The notes beneath the pieces are model-generated. The model searched no databases. It was not told the origin of the DNA and worked only from the letters and a program-made list of their open reading frames with translations. Shown here one piece after another: positions 13,597-60,427 of a DNA stretch of 64,000 nucleotides. Made by a program: the position numbers and the translations under genes. This stretch comes from Brasilonema angustatum HA4187-MV1 (GTDB lineage: Bacteria; Cyanobacteriota; Cyanobacteriia; Cyanobacteriales; Nostocaceae). The DNA is taken from NCBI GenBank assembly GCA_019359695.1, contig JAHHGV010000002.1, positions 62,001-126,000 of the forward strand, read 5' to 3'. The first letter of the stretch is position 1. Each line of letters opens with the position of its first letter.

Positions 13597-15696
13597 ATGG
13601 TGGATTTAGATACAAGAGAATGGTTACTGACTAATGGCTTAGGAAGTTTTGCCAGTGGTACAGTTTCTGATATCCGCACTCGCAGTTATCATGGCTGGTT
13701 GTTTGCCGCGACTAACCCGCCTTCTGGGCGTACTCTGTTGCTTTCGCACCTAGAAGCTAGCCTAGAACTATCAGATCGGGTTGTGGCATTGGGGACAAAT
13801 TTCTGGGGCAGTTGTCAGATAGAGCCAAAGGGCTACGAACTGCTGCGCCTTTTTGATATTAACCCAGTTCCAAAGTGGATATGGGGTGAAGATGACTGGC
13901 AGTTGACTAGACGTTTGGTGATGCCGTATGGATTAATGGAAAAAGTAGGGCAAAACAGAGAAGTAAGCCCTGACTCGCTCACTCCCACATCCCCCCCATT
14001 TCATTTTTGCCATCGTATCTTGGTTCAATATCGCTATGAAGGTACACAAACCGCGATATTGAAGCTGCGACTGCTTATAGGCGATCGCGACTTTCACCAT
14101 CAACAAAAGGTTATTCCAGAATTACAGTTCTCACAATTGCTGGGACAACAGCAAGTCTGCCTGCAAGCAATAAGTTCTGACAATTTTGGAACACCTTGGC
14201 ACTTGCGCTGGACGCAAGGAAACTATCAACCAGATCCATTTTGGTACTTGGATTATAAACTTCCCGAGGAAACTCTGCGGGGGTTGGGCGATCGCGAAGA
14301 CCTCTATAGCCCTGGTTACTTAACAGTTACACTCAGTCCAGGGGATGCGGTGACAATGGATGCACGAGTGGGTTTTCCGAATGAACTGCAAACTCCCCTG
14401 ACTTGTGAAACCTTTGCGGAACTTGTCGAAGCAGAGCAACAGCGGCTGTCTCAAATTTTTGGGTGGGAAAATTGCCAGGGGGAAGTAGGGCGAGATCATA
14501 CTCTTATATCTCCCTCATCTTCCTCAACTCCATCCCACCTCTGGCGGCGACTACTACAAGCTGCCGATCAGTTTATTGTTTATCGTGCTTCTATTGCTGG
14601 TCCGAGCGTGATTGCTGGATATCACTGGTTTAATGACTGGGGGCGCGATACCTTAATTGCCTTACCAGGGTTGACTCTTACTCCACAGCGTTTTGAGTTG
14701 GCAAAAGGACTGTTGCAAACTTTTGGACGTTACTGTTCTCACGGTTTAATTCCTAATGCATTTCCTGACGCGGATGGCGAACCGTTTTATAACAGTATTG
14801 ATGCGGCACTATGGTGGATTGAAACTTTAGGGCTTTACTTAGAAGCAACACAAGACTGGCAGTTTTTGGTAGAGCAATATCCAGTGGTGCAGCAAATCTA
14901 CAAAGCTTTCATTGGAGGGACACGCTATAATATCCAGGCCGATGTTACCGATGGGCTAGTTAGTTGGTATGCTCCTGCTGTAGCTTTGACCTGGATGGAT
15001 GTGGTGGTAGACGGGCAGCCTATCACTCCCCGTCGTGGTAAGCCAGTGGAAATTAATGCTCTATGGTATTCAGCGCTATGTTGGACAAGTCGGTGGGCAG
15101 AAATTTTGAGTGAACACGAAGCTATGGTTGACCGTGGGCGTCTTGCTAAGCAGGCTTTGCGTTACACTGAGCTAGCACAACAAGTGAAAGCTTCTATGCA
15201 ACAGTACTGGAATCCTCAACTGGGTTACTTGTACGATGTGATTGAGCCAGATGATCTAAGAAATTCTCAGATTCGCCCAAATGCCGTTTTGGCACTTTCG
15301 CTTTCACATTGTGCGTTCTCTCAACAGCAAGGGCAAAAAATCCTTGATCTTGCTCGTTCTTGCTTACTCACTCCTTATGGTCTTCGCAGTCTGGCTCCAA
15401 CAGATCCACAATACATTGGCAAATATAAGGGTAACCCAGAAAAACGCGATCGGGCTTATCACCAAGGCACGGTATGGAGTTGGTTAATTGGCCCTTTCAT
15501 TCGTGGTTGGGAGCGTTTTTATCCGGGACTTCCATTACCTTTTGATTGGCAACCCTTGCTAAAACACTTTCTATCTGATGCCTGTCTTGGCTCTATTTCT
15601 GAAATTTTTGAGGGTGACGAGCCGCATACACCAAGAGGAGCAGTAGCTCAAGCTTGGTCTGTTGCTGAAGTCATTCGACATTTGAAGAACTACTAA
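13597..15696 (+). CDS. Glycogen debranching enzyme (amylo-alpha-1,6-glucosidase type)
   Basis: The N-terminal part (REWLLTNGLGSFASGTV, RTRSYHGWL) is the beta-sandwich domain of archaeal-type debranching enzymes. The C-terminal half is the (alpha/alpha)6 barrel with WFNDWGRDTLIALPG, where the Asp is the likely catalytic acid, then HGLIPNAFPD, YNSIDAALWWIE and YHQGTVWSWLIGPF. Its expected action is hydrolysis of alpha-1,6 branch points of glycogen. The 699-residue length is slightly larger than the usual form; two polar, low-complexity stretches (about residues 117-137 and 295-313, rich in Ser, Pro, Thr) look like in-frame additions. A stem of 14 bp follows the stop. Together with glgC it supports glycogen turnover. 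Confidence 0.93.
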   Translation: MVDLDTREWLLTNGLGSFASGTVSDIRTRSYHGWLFAATNPPSGRTLLLSHLEASLELSDRVVALGTNFWGSCQIEPKGYELLRLFDINPVPKWIWGEDDWQLTRRLVMPYGLMEKVGQNREVSPDSLTPTSPPFHFCHRILVQYRYEGTQTAILKLRLLIGDRDFHHQQKVIPELQFSQLLGQQQVCLQAISSDNFGTPWHLRWTQGNYQPDPFWYLDYKLPEETLRGLGDREDLYSPGYLTVTLSPGDAVTMDARVGFPNELQTPLTCETFAELVEAEQQRLSQIFGWENCQGEVGRDHTLISPSSSSTPSHLWRRLLQAADQFIVYRASIAGPSVIAGYHWFNDWGRDTLIALPGLTLTPQRFELAKGLLQTFGRYCSHGLIPNAFPDADGEPFYNSIDAALWWIETLGLYLEATQDWQFLVEQYPVVQQIYKAFIGGTRYNIQADVTDGLVSWYAPAVALTWMDVVVDGQPITPRRGKPVEINALWYSALCWTSRWAEILSEHEAMVDRGRLAKQALRYTELAQQVKASMQQYWNPQLGYLYDVIEPDDLRNSQIRPNAVLALSLSHCAFSQQQGQKILDLARSCLLTPYGLRSLAPTDPQYIGKYKGNPEKRDRAYHQGTVWSWLIGPFIRGWERFYPGLPLPFDWQPLLKHFLSDACLGSISEIFEGDEPHTPRGAVAQAWSVAEVIRHLKNY

Positions 15697-15700
15697 CAAA

Positions 15701-15738
15701 GGAGTGGGGAGTTGTTGGTTAAAGCAACTCCCCACTCC
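15701..15738. terminator. Strong hairpin between debranching gene and tRNA-Met
   Basis: GGAGTGGGGAGTTG (15701-15714) pairs perfectly with CAACTCCCCACTCC (15725-15738). No long T tract follows, but its place between two convergent genes fits a bidirectional transcription stop. Confidence 0.6.
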
Positions 15739-15766
15739 CTATCTGTTACTTAAAGATTTGCAAAAA

Positions 15767-22710: not shown

Positions 22711-23849
22711 CGGAGACTCAAGCTGAAGCAATTTTTCAACATATTGATTGCGTCATTGGTATGGGACAATCTATTCCAGACAATTCTGCTATCCTTTTTT
22801 CCAAAGGATTTTATGATGCTATTTTTGGTGGCAGAAACTACGCAGATGCTTTTCAATTTGGTTGTAATAATATAGATTTAAATAATCTTTTGGAATTTAA
22901 TACTCCCACAATAAAAATTAAACATAGAGATTTTAGTCCGGAAGACTCAATGACAAGTCAACCACATGCACGCTTATTCTTTCTTGGCACGGTAGTATTT
23001 GTTTTGATAATTAGTTTACTAGGACTTTTCCGGTTAGTACTTGCTGATTTTAACCAAGCAACAAAACTTGATAAAAACGATGCCCAAGTTTACTACAACC
23101 GAGGAATTTCTTACGGCAATAAAAAAGACTATGACCGCGCAATAGCTGATTTTAACCAAGCAATTAAACTTGACCCGAACTATGCCACAGCTTTCTACAA
23201 CCGAGGACTTTCTTACGCCTATAAAAAAGACTATGACCGCGCAATAGCTGATTTTAACCAAGCAATTAAACTTGACCAAAACTATGCCACAGCTTACTAC
23301 AACCGAGGACTTTCTTACTACAATAAAAAAGACGATGACCGCGCGATAGCTGATTATACCCAAGCTATTAAACTTGACCCGAACTTAGCCCAAGCTTACT
23401 ACAACCGAGGAATTTCTTACGGCAATAAAAAAGACTATGACCGCGCGATAGCTGATTATACCCAAACAATTAAACTTGACCCAAACTATGCCGCTGCTTA
23501 CAACAATCGAGGATATTATTATTTGTATAAAAAAGACTATGACCGCGCGATAGCTGATTATAACCAAGCTATTAAACTTGATCCGAATGATGCTGTAACT
23601 TATGATAGCCGATGTGAGCTATACCGTGTTAAGAAAGACTATGATCGTGCTATAGCCGATTGTAACCAAGCTATTAAACTTGACCCAAACTATGCCGCAG
23701 CTTACAACAACCGAGGGTTAGTTTATAAGAATAAGGGCAATAAAGATAAAGCTATACAAGACTTCCAAAAAATCTTGCAATTAAATAATGATGTTGAATT
23801 GAACGAAAAAGCAAAACAAGAACTGAAAACAGTGAACAGTGAACAGTGA
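22711..23849 (+). pseudogene. Truncated copy of the CHAT-TM-TPR gene, lacking catalytic residues
   Basis: From AGACTCAAGCTGAAGC onward the DNA is close to identical to the CHAT gene at about 24705 onward. The copy starts just after the position of the catalytic Cys, so it lacks both the His and Cys of the CHAT dyad. After the first transmembrane segment (CTTTTCCGGTTAGTACTT) it jumps directly to a TPR repeat, missing about 230 residues of the middle region. About eight TPR units follow, then the same C terminus (KGNKDKAIQDFQKIL). The only usable start is an ATG at 22761 with no clear ribosome site, giving up to 362 residues. In this frame the upstream stop is the TGA of the deacetylase gene. 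It is probably a decaying paralogue or donor for repeat exchange. Confidence 0.85.
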
Positions 23850-24361: not shown

Positions 24362-27222
24362 TGAAGAAGATTTTAATATTATCAGCTAATCCTATAAATA
24401 CAAATAACTTGCGCTTGGATGAAGAAGTACGAGAAATTCAAGCAGCGTGGGAACGCGCTCTTAATAGAGAAAAATTTGAATTGATTAATAAAGGTGCAGT
24501 TCGTATTGATGAGTTGCGTCGTACATTGTTAGATCATAAACCACAAATAGTACATTTTTCCGGTCACGGTACTGGGACTGATGGCTTAGTTCTGGAAAAT
24601 AACTCAGGTTCGGCGCAGATAGTAAGTACGCAATCACTCTCACGTTTTTTTGAGTTATCAAAAGAGCAAGTAGAGTGTGTTTTACTAAACGCTTGCTATT
24701 CCAAGACTCAAGCTGAAGCAATTTTTCAACATATTGATTGTGTCATTGGTATGGGACAATCTATTCCAGACAATTCTGCTATCATTTTTTCCAAAGGATT
24801 TTATGATGCTATTTTTTGTGGCAGAAACTACGCAGATGCTTTTCAATTTGGTTGTAATAATATAGATTTAAATAATCTTTTGGAATTTAATACTCCCACA
24901 ATAAAAATTAGACATAGAGATTTTAGTCCGGAAGACTCAATCACAACTCAACCATATACACCGTTGTTCTTTATTGGCACGGTAGTATTTGGTTTGATAA
25001 TTAGCTTACTAGGACTTTTCCGGTTAATACTTAACGATTATGGATTAATAACTCATATTTTACTCGGCTTTGGTCTGATTACTTTTTGGATCTGTTGTGC
25101 ATACATCTACTATCCCTCAAGTCGAATTGCTGGTTTTAATATCAATTTCTTTAGACGATTCAAACAATACAAAAAATTACGGCGTTTGGCTCTAGCAGGG
25201 ATGGTGATTCTACCTCTTTTGGGTATAACTGGATTTTATATATTGGAACTCCCAACCAAGGACATTATTGTTCTTCTCGCTGATTTTGAAACTTCTGCTG
25301 AGCACAAAAAGTTTCGTGTAACTCAAAATATCTTTGAGAACCTAAATAATGCCTTTCAACAATCTCCTGATGTCAAAGTACAACGTTTAAACAAAATAAT
25401 TACTAACCGTCAAGATGCCCTTAGTGAAGGAGAAAGTCACAAAGCTAGGATTGTCATTTGGGGTGATTATGACGTAACAAGTACAAGTACACAGTTTAGT
25501 CCACACTTTGAAGTATTGCGTACCCCAAAATACTTACCTAAAATTGGCTCGTTAGAACAGACGGCTAGCATCTCTGAATTAAACAATTTTCAATTGCAAT
25601 TACGTCTTTCAAAAGAGATGAGTTATTTGACTCATTTTACTGTGGGATTAATTCGTTACACAGTTAGTGATTGGGAACAGGCTATAACCTCTTTTAGCGA
25701 AGCTTTGGAACAGGGTAATGATTCAATGAAAGCGTTAAACCAGAAAATAGTCTACAATTACCGAGGAAATTCTTACTTTTATAAAAAAGACTATGACCGC
25801 GCTATAGCTGATTATAACCAAGCTATTAAACTTGACCATAACTATGCCTTCCCTTACAACAACCGAGGACTTTCTTACTTTTATAAAAAAGACTATGATC
25901 GTGCTATAGCTGATTATAACCAAGAAATTAAACTTGACCCGAATTATGCCCTAGCTTACAACAACCGAGGAAATTGTTACTTATATAAAAATGAGTATGA
26001 CCGCGCTATAGCTGATTATAACCAAGCAATTAAACTTGATCCGAACGATGCCAAAGCTTACTACAACCGAGGACTTTCTTACGACACTAAAGAAGAGTAT
26101 GACCGCGCTATAGCTGATTATAACCAAGCAATTAAACTTGATCCGAACGATGCCAAAGCTTACTACAACCGAGGAAATTATTACTTATATAAAAATGAGT
26201 ATGACCGCGCTATAGCTGATTATACCCAAGCAATTAAACTTGATCCGAACGATGCCAAAGCTTACAAAAACCGAGGACTTTCTTACGACACTAAAGAAGA
26301 GTATGACCGCGCTATAGCTGATTATACCCAAGCAATTAAACTTGATCCGAACGATGCCAAAGCTTACTACAACCGAGGACTTTCTTACGACACTAAAGAA
26401 GAGTATGACCGCGCTATAGCTGATTATACCCAAGCAATTAAACTTGACCCTAACTTAGCCAAAGCTTACAAAAACCGAGGAAATTCTTACTTTTCTAAAG
26501 AAGAGTATGACCGCGCTATAGCTGATTATAACCAAGCAATTAAACTTGACCAGAGCGATGCCCTAGCTTACAACAACCGAGGACTTTCTTACAACAATAA
26601 AAAAGAGTATGACCGCGCTATAGCTGATTATAACCAAGCAATTAAACTTGACCCGAACTTAGCCAAAGCTTACTACAACCGAGGAGGTTCTTACTTATAT
26701 AAAAAAGAGTATGACCGCGCTATAGCTGATTATAACCAAGCAATTAAACTTGATCCGACCGATGCCAAAGCTTACAACAACCGAGGATTTTCTTACAATA
26801 ATAAAAAAGACTATGGCCGCGCTATAGCTGATTTTAACCAAGCTATTAAACTTGACCCGAACTTAGCCAAAGCTTACAAAAACCGAGGAATTTATTACTT
26901 ATATAAAAAAGACTATGACCGCGCTATAGCTGATTTTAACCAAGCTATTAAACTTGACCCGAACTTAGCCCTAGCTTATGATAGCCGATGTGAGCTATAC
27001 CGTATTAAGAAAGACTATGATCGTGGTATAGCCGATTGTGACCAAGCTATTAAACTTGACTCTAACTTAACCGATGCTTACTACAACCGAGGGTTAGTTT
27101 ATAAGAATAAGGGCAATAAAGATAAAGCCATACAAGACTTCCAAAAAATCTTGCAATTAAATGATGATGTTGAATTGAACCAAAAAGCAAAACAAGAACT
27201 TAAAGAACTAAGCACAAAATAA
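24361..27222 (+). CDS. Membrane-anchored CHAT protease-like protein with about 13 TPR units
   Basis: Residues 1 to about 180 form a CHAT (caspase-like) domain, with His69 in VHFSGHGTG and Cys112 in LLNACYSKTQA as the expected dyad. Two or three hydrophobic segments follow at about 202-224, 229-252 and 276-297, predicting a membrane anchor. Residues 300-450 form an unrecognised globular region. From about 464 to 930 there are roughly 13 TPRs of 34 residues with the pattern YDRAIADYNQAIKLDP, followed by a degenerate last unit. The DNA of the repeats is nearly identical with a 102-nt period. CHAT proteins cleave or regulate partner proteins; here the target is unknown. Coupling to the RHH-like gene suggests a regulated or toxin-like effector, which is inference. 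Confidence 0.9.
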   Translation: MKKILILSANPINTNNLRLDEEVREIQAAWERALNREKFELINKGAVRIDELRRTLLDHKPQIVHFSGHGTGTDGLVLENNSGSAQIVSTQSLSRFFELSKEQVECVLLNACYSKTQAEAIFQHIDCVIGMGQSIPDNSAIIFSKGFYDAIFCGRNYADAFQFGCNNIDLNNLLEFNTPTIKIRHRDFSPEDSITTQPYTPLFFIGTVVFGLIISLLGLFRLILNDYGLITHILLGFGLITFWICCAYIYYPSSRIAGFNINFFRRFKQYKKLRRLALAGMVILPLLGITGFYILELPTKDIIVLLADFETSAEHKKFRVTQNIFENLNNAFQQSPDVKVQRLNKIITNRQDALSEGESHKARIVIWGDYDVTSTSTQFSPHFEVLRTPKYLPKIGSLEQTASISELNNFQLQLRLSKEMSYLTHFTVGLIRYTVSDWEQAITSFSEALEQGNDSMKALNQKIVYNYRGNSYFYKKDYDRAIADYNQAIKLDHNYAFPYNNRGLSYFYKKDYDRAIADYNQEIKLDPNYALAYNNRGNCYLYKNEYDRAIADYNQAIKLDPNDAKAYYNRGLSYDTKEEYDRAIADYNQAIKLDPNDAKAYYNRGNYYLYKNEYDRAIADYTQAIKLDPNDAKAYKNRGLSYDTKEEYDRAIADYTQAIKLDPNDAKAYYNRGLSYDTKEEYDRAIADYTQAIKLDPNLAKAYKNRGNSYFSKEEYDRAIADYNQAIKLDQSDALAYNNRGLSYNNKKEYDRAIADYNQAIKLDPNLAKAYYNRGGSYLYKKEYDRAIADYNQAIKLDPTDAKAYNNRGFSYNNKKDYGRAIADFNQAIKLDPNLAKAYKNRGIYYLYKKDYDRAIADFNQAIKLDPNLALAYDSRCELYRIKKDYDRGIADCDQAIKLDSNLTDAYYNRGLVYKNKGNKDKAIQDFQKILQLNDDVELNQKAKQELKELSTK
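25755..27140 (+). repeat. 102-nt tandem repeat array encoding TPRs
   Basis: About 13 direct copies of a 102-nt unit with blocks such as GACCGCGCTATAGCTGATTA conserved at DNA level. The pseudogene copy at about 23030-23750 shares the unit. Confidence 0.9.
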
Positions 27223-46756: not shown

Positions 46757-47579
46757 TCAATTTTGGATTTAGGATTTTGCGAAAAGTTTGAGCGGAGGTT
46801 TCCTCCGATCAAAGCTTTTCAAGACGGATTTTGGATTAACTCCACCCTAAAAGTGCTCTGCTTGGAGTGGAGCGAAACGAAGCCTAGATTTTTAAATTTA
46901 CGATTTTGGATTAATTCCGTCAAAGATGGACGGGGCTTGTACCGAAAATCAACGCCAAGTACCAAGTGAGGAGCCAGTGCGGTCTTGGGGTCTCCCCAAG
47001 TAGAGCATCTGGCGTTGGAAACAAGGACTATGGCACAAAGTGCCACGCTACGCGCTTGCTGTATTGGCTCCCCAATTTAAAATCTAAAATTTAAAATCTA
47101 AAATTGCTTCGGTCAACAAAAAGTCTGTTAGTAGTCAGTAGTAGACTCTTCATTTATTGGTATTAATGATGAATTGATACTGAATCAAGAAGAACTCAGA
47201 ATCATGCGTCACAATATGTCTTACGGACACGCTGCGCTAACAGCTGTCATTCTCTATTGCTGGGTAAGTTGCCATAGTTACAAAGCAAGCGTCAAAATTT
47301 TTTGGGATCATTCTGCCTTCTGTGTTCTGCCCAGAGTTAATTCTTATTAATACAGAAACATATTTGCTCAAAGGTGAGTGAATCAAAAAGAGATTGAATT
47401 TTCCGGTTTGCGACACATGAGCAAGGAATAAGGAATAGTAGCGGTCTGCTGCAAATAGCCATAAGTCTTCTATATTCATTTATAGGATAGGCAGTGCCCA
47501 TCCTACTGCTGTCAAACTATGACCTAATGTACTGAGAATAGAAATCTAAAAAAGAGATTCAATATTAGGATAAAGATTT
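46757..47579. other. Intergenic region with several repeat fragments
   Basis: A dispersed repeat lies at about 46963-47060 (GAGGAGCCAGTGCGGTC, CATCTGGCGTTGG). Low-complexity AATTTAAAATCTAAA copies occur at about 47079-47103. Open frames at 46763, 46819 and 47237 fall in repeat or AT-rich sequence and are not called. Confidence 0.45.
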
Positions 47580-55662: not shown

Positions 55663-55779
55663 AGTTGGATTGTAGATTAGAAGTAAAGAACAATAGAGTG
55701 CCCTTATCAAGATAATTCTGTTTTTTCTAAATATACGATACGCGTAGCGTCAAGCAAGCGGGCTTATCGCTTGAAAACT

Positions 55780-56338
55780 TTATCTGCGCTTCAACCAACT
55801 AAAGACTTCATCAACGGATAGTATCAGATTTATACCTTCTAACACTGGCAACACATCTGCTCCAGTCAACAAATCCGGCAGCCGATCCCGATGATAAACT
55901 AAGATAGAGCGTTCGCTCGGATCTATTAACCATCCTAGCTGAGTACCATTTCTTAGACAGTGCAGGATGTTGCCTGTTACCTTGGTCTGACTTTGAGCAG
56001 GGGAAAGGATTTCAATCACCCAAGGTGGAGGAAACTCAATACCGCTGGATGATATCACCGCTATCATCCAGCGGTAGTTGATCAGTGGCGACAACCGCGA
56101 CATCAGGAACTACTGAACGATTACCGAAGGTACAGCGTAATTTTGGAAAGCTTTCGTACTGACTTCCTGCTGCATCAATCACTGCAATTAAACGTTTCTG
56201 CAACAGGCTGTGTTTACCTCCTCCCATCGGTTTGTGAACCGCTTCTCCATTAATAAACTCCCAAGCTGGTGACTCATCAACGTATGGAAGTTCCAAAAAC
56301 TCCTTCAGTGTAGTGGTTACTGGAACTGTAATTGTCAT
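55780..56338 (-). pseudogene. Uma2-family gene broken by a frameshift at a 15-bp hairpin
   Basis: Two overlapping frames on the minus strand cover one Uma2-type protein. The first (from about 56338) reads through FLELPYVDESPAWEFINGE and VVPDVAVVATDQLPLDDSG and ends at a premature stop. The second (to 55780) continues in another frame with SSGIEFPPPWVIEILSPAQSQTKV and GWLIDPSERSILVYHRD to the natural end. The switch lies at a perfect inverted repeat of 15 bp with a 7-nt loop (56040-56076). A single-base indel in one arm would restore the frame. It is a natural frameshift or a sequencing error. Confidence 0.85.
56040..56076. repeat. Perfect 15-bp inverted repeat at the Uma2 frameshift
   Basis: TACCGCTGGATGATA (56040-56054), 7-nt loop TCACCGC, TATCATCCAGCGGTA (56062-56076). 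Confidence 0.9.
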
Positions 56339-56798
56339 TTCCGTCACCCATTTTTTCTTTGACTTTAGTTACATTTTTTCAGTCATACCAAGTTGCAATC
56401 AAAGGTAGCACCTGTCATTGCGTTAGCGTAGCGTGCCCGGAGGGCATACGAAACGAAGTGGAGCGTCCCTTGCGCGTGTCCCCTTGGGACTCAGCAATCT
56501 CCCCTAATCACAAACTACTACAACAGAACGCAACTTGGTATCAGCTATCATCTGATTTTACCATTAATTGGGATACAAAAAGGCTAATGCAGGAACGCCA
56601 TAAATAGTTCAATAAGTACAACATTCATAAGTTCGTAGCGTTATAGTTCGTAGTTGTACTGTCTAGCACAGATCTGCGCAAATATGGCAATTTTATAACA
56701 TTGTTCATCAAAGGAGCAAATCTACTTAACCCAATAGTAGGAAGCTTATTTGTAGAAGCTCATGTCAATGTTTTATCAAATGGATCATCAAGTTACTT
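56339..56798. other. Intergenic region with GC-rich repeat fragment
   Basis: A repeat-like fragment (GCGTAGCGTGCCCGGAGGGC, GGAGCGTCCCTTGCGCG) at about 56420-56485. A 91-codon frame at 56332 overlaps it and is not called. Confidence 0.4.
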
Positions 56799-57152
56799 AT
56801 GACTCAAAAAATTCAAGAATCTCCGGCAGAATCTAAAGATGTGCGAGTTACTGCAACCTCAATAATTTGGGGTATCGCTGTAGGAATGTTAGCAATTTGT
56901 ATCCCACTTTCATCTGCTACAAAAAGTGGTTCTATTTTACCTTTAGCTACTATGACAGCAGCGGCAATAGGTACTGTTGCTGTGTGGCGTTCTGATGAAA
57001 AAAAATCAACAAAGAACTCTTTACTTCCGCAAAATGTAGAACTCTTAGAGCAAAGAATTGCTAACTTAGAAACAATTATAACTCGTGATGATTTTGACTT
57101 GCGGATGAAAATTAAACAGGTAGAATCTCGCGATCGCAAAAGTGACAATTAA
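56799..57152 (+). CDS. Small membrane protein with C-terminal coiled coil (117 aa)
   Basis: Two hydrophobic segments, about residues 19-38 and 46-64 (GSILPLATMTAAAIGTVAVW), then a polar, helical tail ending with QNVELLEQRIANLETIITRDDFDLRMKIKQVE, a likely coiled coil. No recognised family. The ATG at 56799 has no strong ribosome site. The structure suggests a membrane-anchored dimer. Alone on the plus strand, with another small membrane protein gene 280 nt downstream. Confidence 0.6.
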   Translation: MTQKIQESPAESKDVRVTATSIIWGIAVGMLAICIPLSSATKSGSILPLATMTAAAIGTVAVWRSDEKKSTKNSLLPQNVELLEQRIANLETIITRDDFDLRMKIKQVESRDRKSDN

Positions 57153-57432
57153 ATAATTTTTATCCAACTCACTAACTTTGTGTAAGATATAACTCGACTG
57201 GCAATTTTTGATAATTGCCTTAATTTATTCTTAATCTTGTATTACTCTTTTTTCTTTTTGATTACCATATTATTTTTAAATTTTATATACACTCTGTCAG
57301 AATCGCATGTTTCTATAAAAAAAAGATCTAAATTGTGAAGCGATATTACATTTTTGAAAAAAATGTTTAGAAAACGTCTAAAAAGCAAACATGGCTCTAA
57401 CGTAGAACCTAAGAAGATACTAGAGGCAATTT

Positions 57433-57747
57433 ATGACGAGTAACATTCAAAAGTATCGATTTGTCTGTACCCTGACATTTGGCGATATCTATGGTCAAAT
57501 CATTGTTTGGTTGATTACCATTACAATAAGTTTGGCGTCAGCTTTGGCGTTGATGGGTGCCAGAAAACCTGTTTATGCTTTAGCCACTGTTGGACTCGTA
57601 GTTTTACTATCTTTGCCTTTCTTGCTTTTTGCCTTCGTCACTACCTTGCTAAATCACATTGAAGTGTCTCCTATAGAACCAGGAACAAAAATGGAACCAA
57701 TTCCAGGTAATGTGTCGCAGCAACAACCTGTAGAAGCAACTAGCTGA
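57433..57747 (+). CDS. Small two-helix membrane protein (104 aa)
   Basis: The ATG at 57433 follows AGAGGCAATTT, with AGAGG a plausible ribosome site. Hydrophobic segments at about 20-42 and 48-72 (ALATVGLVVLLSLPFLLFAFVTTLL), then a Pro-, Gln- and Val-rich polar C terminus. No family recognised. Likely a real small membrane protein of unknown role. Confidence 0.65.
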   Translation: MTSNIQKYRFVCTLTFGDIYGQIIVWLITITISLASALALMGARKPVYALATVGLVVLLSLPFLLFAFVTTLLNHIEVSPIEPGTKMEPIPGNVSQQQPVEATS

Positions 57748-58467
57748 TCAATTTTAGATTGAGGACTGATAAATGATTAGTTGTTAACGGCAAATGGTAA
57801 AGAACAAGCTAATGCGTGTCTAAGTTACTTGATTTTTTTTGGCTGTCATTAGTCAGCGCGTCGCCTGTTATTACAAATGATTAATGACCAAAACATACAA
57901 ACCCCGTGAACACGTCAATGTGTAACTTAACAAGTGCAACAGCGTAAGCTAACAACTAAACAATTCTCATTCCTGACTTCAAAGTTCATAACTGACACCA
58001 CATCCCTGTCTGTTGGCGGGGAATTTTTTTGACCAAAGCTAAGGGTGTAGGGGTGTAGGCAATACGGTTCGGTTAGCTTGTTTTTCTCAAGGAAGATCCC
58101 CCCAACCACGCCAGGTGCTACAACGGGGGGAACCCCAACGCCAGACGCCTCAAGTCGGGAAACCCGCCCACGGCGCTGGCTCCGCAACGCACTGGCTCCC
58201 CTTAAAAAGGGGGCTTATAACCCTCTTTTACCCCCTTTTTAAGGGGGTCGCCGCAGGCGGGGGGATCTTATCCAAACCGTATTGGGGGTGTAGGGGAAAG
58301 AAAAAACGATATTTTTGTACAAGAAAACCCCGGAATCACCTTGGTCTCAGAGCAAGCACTGATTTATTCCCTACACCCTTATACCCTTACACCCCTTCTT
58401 CTTGACACACGCGACGTATCAGCTTTTTACAATATAACAACTATAACTTTTTGATAATTGGGGATTT
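57748..58467. other. Long intergenic region with dispersed repeats
   Basis: A repeat of the GAGCCAGT family lies at about 58105-58205 (AACGCCAGACGCC, AAGTCGGGAAACCCGCC, GGCGCTGGCTCCGC). A long inverted pair of AAAAAGGGGGCTTATAACCC and CCCTTTTTAAGGGGG surrounds 58203-58250. TTACACCC-type runs lie up to 58395. The region contains the sdhA promoter. Confidence 0.5.
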
Positions 58468-60198
58468 GTGATGCTTGAACACGATGTAATTATTGTCGGA
58501 GGTGGGTTGGCTGGGTGTCGCGCTGCAGTGGAAATTGCCCGCATTGACCCCAGTTTGAACGTCGCAGTGGTTGCGAAAACTCACCCGATTCGTTCCCACT
58601 CAGTCGCAGCACAAGGTGGTATGGCTGCGTCTCTAAAAAATGTTGATTCAGCAGACACTTGGGAAGCTCATGCTTTTGACACTGTTAAGGGTTCTGACTA
58701 TTTAGCTGACCAAGATGCGGTGGAAATTCTCACGCGTGAAGCGCCAGATGTCGTGATTGATCTAGAACACATGGGCGTTTTATTCTCCCGTTTAAACGAT
58801 GGTCGCATTGCTCAACGCGCTTTTGGTGGACATTCTCACAATCGTACTTGCTACGCTGCTGATAAAACTGGTCACGCCATTTTGCATGAACTGGTGAACA
58901 ACCTGCGGCGATATGGTGTGCAAATTTATCAAGAGTGGTACGTGATGCGCCTGATTTTAGAAGAAGGTCAGGCGAAAGGTGTGGTGATGTACCGTATCGA
59001 AGATGGGCACATAGAAGTGTTGCGAGCTAAAGCAGTGATGTTTGCGACTGGCGGATATGGGCGAGTTTACAACACCACGTCTAATGATTATGCTTCCACG
59101 GGTGATGGTCTGGCAATGACTGCTCTGGCTGGTTTACCGTTGCAAGATATGGAGTTTGTGCAATTTCATCCTACAGGGTTATATCCGGTAGGGGTGCTGA
59201 TTTCAGAAGCAGTGCGTGGGGAAGGGGCATATCTGATCAACTCTGAGGGAGAACGGTTTATGGAAAGATACGCTCCCAGTCGCATGGAACTTGCTCCGCG
59301 TGATATTACTTCACGGGCGATCGCCTACGAAATTCGTGCTGGTCGTGGTGTTCATCAAGATGGGAGTGCGGGTGGTCCCTTTGTCTATCTTGACTTACGA
59401 CACATGGGTAAAGAAAAAATCATGAGTCGCGTTCCCTTCTCTTGGGAGGAAGCACACCGTCTGGTGGGTGTTGACGCAGTCACTCAACCTATGCCTGTCC
59501 GCCCTACCATTCATTATTGCATGGGTGGTATCCCTGTGAATACTGAAGGTCAAGTTCGTAGTAGTGGCGATGGTCTGATTGATGGCTTTTTTGCCGCTGG
59601 GGAAACTGCTTGTGTTTCCGTACATGGTGCAAATCGTCTCGGTAGTAATTCCTTGTTGGAATGTGTGGTTTATGGACGTAGAACAGGCGCTTCGCTTGCA
59701 CATTTTGTCCAAAAACGCAAGCTGCCCACAGTGGACGAGCAACGCTACATCAGTGAAGCTCAGCAAGAGATTCAAGCTTTGCTAGATCAGTCAGGCAAAT
59801 ACCGGATTAACCAAGTCCGGCAAGCCTTCCAAGATGACATGACTCAGTACTGCGGCGTTTTCCGCACCGAGGAATTAATGCGTGAAGGTCTAAACAAAGT
59901 GCAAGAATTAGAAGAACAGTACTCGCAGATATATTTAGACGACAAAGGCAGTTGCTGGAATACAGAAATCATAGAAGCCTTTGAAACGCGGAGTTTGATG
60001 GTAGTAGGGCGTATGATTTTGGAATCAGCCTTGAATCGTCAGGAAAGTCGCGGCGCTCACTTCCGCGAAGATTATCCCCAACGGGATGACACCAACTTCT
60101 TAAGGCACACAATGGCTTATTATTCGCCAGCAGGGATTGATATCCAATATCGCCCAGTGGCAATTACGATGTTTCAGCCACAGGAGCGGAAGTATTAG
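58468..60198 (+). CDS. sdhA: Succinate dehydrogenase / fumarate reductase flavoprotein subunit
   Basis: [19 protein letters not shown] is the FAD-binding GxGxxG. The covalent FAD histidine is His44 in [37 protein letters not shown] and the final [22 protein letters not shown] are the substrate- and FAD-binding signatures. 576 residues is full length. It oxidises succinate in the electron-transport-linked complex; the iron-sulfur and membrane subunits are not next to it, as is usual in cyanobacteria. A plain start ATG at 58471 may also be used (the frame begins MMLEHD). Confidence 0.97.
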
Positions 60199-60342: not shown

Positions 60343-60427
60343 GTAACTAATAACTAATAACTAATAACTAATGACTAATGACTAATAACTAATGACTAAT
60401 AACTAATGACTAATAACTAATGACTAA
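60343..60427. repeat. TAACTAA/TGACTAA heptamer array at the 3' end of the kinase gene
   Basis: About 12 direct copies of the 7-mers TAACTAA and TGACTAA. Its right end runs into the last codons and stop codon of the histidine kinase gene. Confidence 0.85.

Follow-up and report, generated by a model that had tools for sequence, protein, structure and literature searches.

The two Ser/Pro/Thr-rich stretches of the debranching enzyme gene described here are very probably remnants of intergenic-type repeats lodged in two permissive loops of a conserved protein. At the level of the gene family, the in-frame entry of repeats into these two loops is well supported. Several inserts of relatives belong to high-copy families of dispersed repeats, and empty and filled sites coexist within one genus, in agreement with a sequence-only reading which had suggested that repeats may have entered the gene in frame. 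The gene lies in a window of 64,000 nucleotides (the whole stretch of DNA that was analyzed), with the following features:

13597 to 15696, forward strand: glycogen debranching enzyme-like gene, 699 aa, with GDE_N at residues 7-253 and GDE_C at residues 322-694.
13924 to 14022, forward strand: variable site 1, residues 110-142, with a variable core at residues 113-137 (13933-14007).
13966 to 13998, forward strand: Ser/Pro/Thr-rich tract of site 1, residues 124-134, C-rich DNA.
14446 to 14556, forward strand: variable site 2, residues 284-320, with a variable core at residues 290-315 (14464-14541).
14478 to 14496, forward strand: G-rich arm of the worn hairpin of site 2.
14508 to 14525, forward strand: C-rich arm of the worn hairpin of site 2, of the CTCCCTCATCTTCCTC type.
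15701 to 15738, forward strand: hairpin with a G-rich then a C-rich arm, the same kind of motif outside the gene (folding of 15690-15745, z -6.74).

Judged by its domain content, the gene probably encodes a glycogen debranching enzyme of the GDE_N plus GDE_C type. The protein scores 456.3 bits against GDE_C and 222.5 bits against GDE_N in Pfam (gathering cut-offs 21 and 27), and 365.1 bits against TIGR01561 (archaeal-type glycogen debranching enzyme), about one bit above the cut-off of 364.15. It resembles this family in domain content and scores, and membership is silent on the variable loops. The predicted fold matches structures of GH63, GH116, GH94 and the yeast debranching enzyme with E-values of 1e-10 or better and TM-scores below 0.5. 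The structure models have moderate confidence (mean pLDDT of 62.4 for the first and 66 for the second), a point that counts against our reading. They place site 1 in a coil between predicted beta strands 101-108 and 140-149, and site 2 mostly in a coil between helices 270-288 and 312-324, both with pLDDT below 50. The models suggest that site 1 is a beta-hairpin loop of the N-terminal domain and that site 2 is the linker from GDE_N to the catalytic GDE_C domain.

The Ser/Pro/Thr-rich stretches had been placed at about residues 117-137 and 295-313, which correspond to positions 13945-14007 and 14479-14535. Their cores hold 9 Ser, Pro or Thr in 11 residues (124-134) and 10 in 12 residues (302-313, the tract of site 2). 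Among 20,000 shuffles of the window protein, a 12-residue segment with at least 10 such residues arose in 15 and one with at least 9 in 205, so both tracts are unusual. The stretches as first described are mainly the C-rich 3' halves of the variable segments, which also have a G/purine-rich 5' half (residues ~113-137 and ~290-315).

A homologue search covered 149 relatives and found matches in 123, with 80 loci coming from named genomes, among which the nearest are Scytonema tolypothrichoides, Brasilonema bromeliae and Brasilonema sp. Part of the 123 genomes with a match were fetched, first as 30 loci and later as 40 regions. Two sets of homologues were compared. The first comprises 92 distinct cyanobacterial proteins, obtained from 110 loci ranked by similarity by removing 18 identical duplicates, with near-invariant columns serving as anchors. 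The second comprises 125 homologues from 150 loci, 25 duplicates or incomplete loci being left out; because 20 of its loci were picked for matches broken at the sites or for long frames, counts on the 125 homologues are not population rates.

Large length variation among homologues is limited to the two places that had been said to interrupt an otherwise conserved protein. In the set of 92, the length from anchor to anchor ranged from 9 to 88 residues in interval 110-140 and from 19 to 86 in interval 284-319 (spreads of 79 and 67), and the sole other interval to vary by at least 2 residues was 505-519 (11-13). In the set of 125, the standard deviation of length was 16.4 at site 1 and 18.7 at site 2, against at most 2.3 elsewhere, with site 2 reaching up to 137 residues between anchors. 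Eight other intervals varied in this set, mostly in single proteins, the largest being 180-189 (8 to 34 residues), and we count these few cases against our reading. The loops are as short as 8 residues (110-142) and 10 residues (284-320) in some species. Fourteen homologues come from other families of the order; their median loop lengths were 23 and 23.5, compared with 35 and 42 in the other 111. The lengths of the two loops correlate across homologues (Spearman 0.54).

When homologues (50-98% identical overall) were aligned to look for absence of the stretches, these were found shorter, longer or swapped for unrelated repeats. The window's genus holds empty sites alongside in-frame inserts of 57 or 102 bp: the distance between fixed words at site 1 is 96 bp in the window and in two relatives (L002, L031), whereas L005 has 153 bp and L032 has 198 bp. 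Outside the sites, L005 is 98.3% identical to the window gene. L005 and an L032-type gene (L007) have part of the insert in common, and a close relative of each is without it, which implies that the insert was gained repeatedly at one point, lost precisely or exchanged. The presence of the insert at site 1 (L005 and L007/L032 versus L001, L002 and L003/L031) seems to cross gene relationships.

Turnover at the two sites is rapid. Among 43 pairs with at least 95% identity outside the sites, loop length is unequal in 30 at site 1 and in 27 at site 2. Summed on the tree, the state changes of repeat families number at least 60 at site 1 and at least 80 at site 2, with gains and losses pooled, the families being our own word patterns set after viewing the sequences and the changes of different families not being independent. 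L073 and L077 differ at site 1 by 7 residues, the length of three heptamers.

Several inserts of relatives have many copies elsewhere in the genome; the window copy gave no such result. A 90-bp stretch of site 1 in L032 (the sister species Brasilonema bromeliae), for which 40 candidates were scored per genome, had 23-53 reported matches per genome, partial ones included, in all seven same-genus genomes. One copy of the repeat was located as follows:

46967 to 47015, forward strand: member of the palindromic dispersed repeat family seen in frame at site 1 of L032, GGTCTTGGGG..CCCCAAG.

Out of 20 copies of this family taken from near the top of the list, 15 lay outside ORFs of at least 100 codons, one overlapped an ORF end and four were inside ORFs; ORF calls were mechanical here, as in the arm counts, order counts and ORF samples below. 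One of the copies inside an ORF belongs to a 513-residue frame with Orn/DAP/Arg decarboxylase domains (L213, 727-2265). The insert stretch of L064 had 36-43 matches, many of them partial, in three genomes, and 19 in the window genome. A 22-bp palindrome, ACAGACGCGATTAATCGCGTCT, seen at site 1 of L079, had 121, 178 and 97 exact matches in three genomes (strands summed, some places counted twice) and none for its reversed control. These three genomes carry this palindrome or a close variant at site 1, and in the window genome it had no exact match.

Other loops of relatives are filled with short tandem units. The G-rich units are GGGGACT, GGGGATT, GGGGAGCA and GGGGACAA, and they are followed by the C-rich units CCCAATG, CCCAATC, CCCCTCTG, CCCCACT and CCCTCAT; longer palindromes occur too, and the repeats differ from species to species. 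Neither 7 nor 8 is a multiple of 3, so these arrays run through all three frames. Strict arms of tandem 7-8 bp units were held by 53 of the 125 homologues at site 1 and by 56 at site 2. The two sites contained 179 of these arms, a density of 5.85 per kb. Elsewhere the gene had 0.046 per kb, other ORFs had 0.049 (31 arms in 628 kb) and the DNA between ORFs had 0.243 (65 arms in 268 kb). The corresponding values for loose arms were 10.99, 1.02, 0.685 and 1.165. The excess in the sites is therefore about 120-fold (strict) or 16-fold (loose) over other ORFs, and 24-fold or 9-fold over the DNA between ORFs. Strict G-rich and C-rich arms are also commoner between ORFs than in other ORFs of the same organisms, in line with membership in the STRRs. 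That loops exceed even intergenic DNA in arm density counts against our reading, as passive tolerance of random arrivals would predict less in the absence of a local seed or benefit.

Could the loops instead have varied by ordinary drift of low-complexity linkers at the protein level, dispersed repeats playing no part? Both sites are Gly/Ser/Pro-rich loops, and the window copy, which lacks an intact repeat and whose site 1 tract is not enriched, would fit such drift. Yet the inserts of relatives include palindromes with tens to more than 100 matches per genome, their tandem heptamers are read in every frame, and arms are far denser than in other ORFs. Drift is contradicted for the family and possible for site 1 of the window, and as the general explanation we hold it to be very improbable.

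The order of the arms is more regular in the loops than elsewhere. The G arm stands ahead of the C arm in 49 of 49 sites holding both (strict) and in 90 of 90 (loose), compared with 20 G-C against 4 C-G neighboring arms in intergenic DNA (strict; 67 against 38 for loose arms). The skew was G-first in 100 of 103 and 105 of 107 sites; among control segments it was so in 38 of 103 and 51 of 107. By eye, a G-run marks the 5' edge of the sites and a C-run the 3' edge. The idea that G-rich repeats always face outward at gene edges was considered and rejected: G-rich arms were found 48 left and 27 right and C-rich arms 25 and 48, but divergent starts gave 7 and 9 for G.

The sites also tend to fold better than shuffled sequence. 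Against whole shuffles, 33 of 103 and 31 of 107 sites had z below -2, compared with 3 of 103 and 8 of 107 controls. With shuffles that keep the composition of each half, 20 of 89 and 17 of 98 sites had z below -2 and none had z above 2; most individual sites were not significant. Composition as the whole cause of the hairpins was rejected, since the native order folds better on average than sequences whose two halves were shuffled separately.

This order, skew and folding, together with the higher density of arms in the loops than in intergenic DNA, favor an account in which the inserts are kept for use, a G-then-C mRNA hairpin (or quadruplex) in the loop and at the domain boundary slowing translation for stepwise domain folding or tuning expression. 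However, the insert sequences are not conserved, some species manage with loops of minimal length, and a paralogue manages without inserts. No strict arm was present at 72 (site 1) and 69 (site 2) of the 125 homologues, numbers that also count against our own reading, and site 1 of the window has no hairpin. The homologues are, moreover, not independent. We consider use of this kind distinctly unlikely. A related proposal is that the loops are preferred homes, where an active process seeded at the edge G-run and C-run would rebuild the G-arm/C-arm hairpin lineage after lineage, the resulting mRNA structure being used, for example, in pacing translation across the domain boundary; we regard it as unlikely.

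An assembly or annotation artefact at repeats would be another source of apparent variation. In two genomes (G020, G074) the gene seems to be split between contigs at site 2, as short-read repeats would cause. The pattern is nevertheless present in genomes of one to three contigs (G003, G038, G040) and in many independent projects, and the frame is open across the match in 110 loci. An artefact is contradicted by these observations and can practically be dismissed.

A paralogue group, 38-45% identical to the window protein, has no such inserts: its loops are short and nearly constant in 20 of 20 copies. These copies are a subset of the paralogues listed by the homologue search and come from 20 genomes, of which 16 carry the insert-bearing gene as well. 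In view of these nearly constant loops we reject a general permissiveness of the fold. As the paralogue is short-looped even in genomes with the insert-bearing gene, something beyond fold and genome matters, and this extra factor could be either the tolerance of the debranching protein or sequence seeds at the site edges (G-run 5', C-run 3').

The window copy itself would represent an old, worn state of repeat entry. The claimed likeness of its DNA to intergenic repeats held for site 2 and failed for site 1. In the window genome, the site 2 word CTCCCTCATCTTCCTC had 41 matches with at most 2 mismatches (the gene's own counted), about three times the 14 of its reversed control. The site 1 word CTCCCACATCCCCCC had 21 matches against 132 for its control, being rarer than the control and showing no enrichment, and within the window it occurred once with at most 3 mismatches, in site 1 of the gene. 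Folding of site 2 (14463-14540) gave z -2.25 against whole shuffles and a non-significant z of -1.0 when the halves were shuffled separately; site 1 had no hairpin (z 0.29). Tandem Repeats Finder (minimum score 40) reported no array in the window gene, and arrays of the CTCCCTCAT type are present on another contig of the window genome. The lack of an intact repeat in the window stretches, the absence of hairpin or enrichment at site 1 and the half-wise result at site 2 all count against our reading. With no array, no signal at site 1 and a weak signal at site 2, we infer the repeat origin of the window stretches from relatives, and on the sequence at hand this origin, of which the worn hairpin of site 2 may be what is left, is less well supported than for the gene family. 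The tracts are not recent, since they are common to the closest relatives (L002, L005, L031, L032). Directly 3' of the stop codon, the hairpin at 15701-15738 is composed of GGAGTGGGGAGT / ACTCCCCACTCC.

In the reading that we prefer, remnants of repeats in permissive loops, the two loops would be recurrent sites of landing and expansion across these cyanobacteria. Heptamer and octamer arrays, often as a G-rich then a C-rich arm, and palindromic dispersed repeats may enter the loops, where the inserts would lengthen or shorten in frame-keeping steps, be overwritten by others and disappear. Arrays would change by slippage and palindromes would arrive by transposition-like copying. The loops probably tolerate the inserts rather than need them, only stop-free and frame-keeping events surviving selection. 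An array of TAACTAATGACTAA in the window (60344-60427) is stop-rich; arrays of this type could not enter genes in frame because they are untranslatable.

STRRs inside the RNase P RNA gene were reportedly described by Vioque in 1997. In-gene repeats are known as a kind, since heptamers in Nostoc, intragenic REPs and palindromes in Rickettsia have all been published. One study reports 89 such heptamer repeats in Nostoc, 68% of them between genes, so that in-gene copies are known; in PCC 7120 it found that few repeats are paired in a way that allows inverted repeats, and it describes their functional role as still to be elucidated (PMC4692102). Another describes 7-bp STRRs between genes as hairpin-capable (PMC2670836). 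The Nostoc STRRs consist of the same units as here (GGGGACT/GGGGATT and relatives) in related organisms; unlike them, the repeats reported here recurrently hit two orthologous protein loops over many genera, with a fixed G-then-C order and the frame kept. Rickettsia palindromic elements (RPE) are described in a review as small palindromic repeats found in frame in unrelated protein genes (PMC10969869). The inserts of relatives resemble them in the in-frame entry of palindromes, a likeness by behavior, but the bacteria differ, tandem arrays are common here and two sites are filled again and again. REPs and REPINs (GTAG- and CGTC-tagged) and small dispersed repeats of cyanobacteria, with intragenic REPs in several species, are covered in two papers (PMC3733652, PMC3116915). 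The palindromes found here are like them in high copy number, shortness and mostly intergenic position. We found no paper on repeats in this debranching gene among the open-licence papers searched and, as far as this search reached, the double recurrent hotspot with its strict G-then-C order is new.

Filamentous cyanobacteria thus carry a conserved enzyme with two fast-changing patches of "junk" DNA in surface loops. The result is a series of about a hundred natural variants of one enzyme, which differ in length and sequence far more in two loops than in the rest. Such a series lets one measure how selfish or slippage-born DNA becomes protein and how fast it turns over, and may tell whether the fixed G-then-C order reflects repeat origin or use in mRNA.

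In-gene arms as such are not unique to the debranching gene, which stands out by their recurrence over many genera. The strict detector flagged 7 of 229 and 16 of 229 ORFs in two 400-kb samples, several by single short words and maybe by chance. Clear translated G-rich and/or C-rich arms were seen in genes for a UvrD-type helicase (L202, 10689-13253), an Omp85 protein (L207, 13537-15723), a glycosyl-hydrolase-like protein (L155, 13980-16490), a GDSL protein (L199, 4173-5093), a methyltransferase (L157, 13552-14814) and a GNAT acetyltransferase (L154, 18177-18668). Two unrelated genes of G038 share an in-frame element with the C arm first (PLTPPLQREG..PPSLSGKG type; joined pieces 178382-184312 and 55726-58911, L191-L210), so the G-then-C order is not a rule for all in-gene repeats. 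In the window, 102-bp tandem arrays, which would be 34-codon units if translated, lie at 23043-23716 and 25753-27092.
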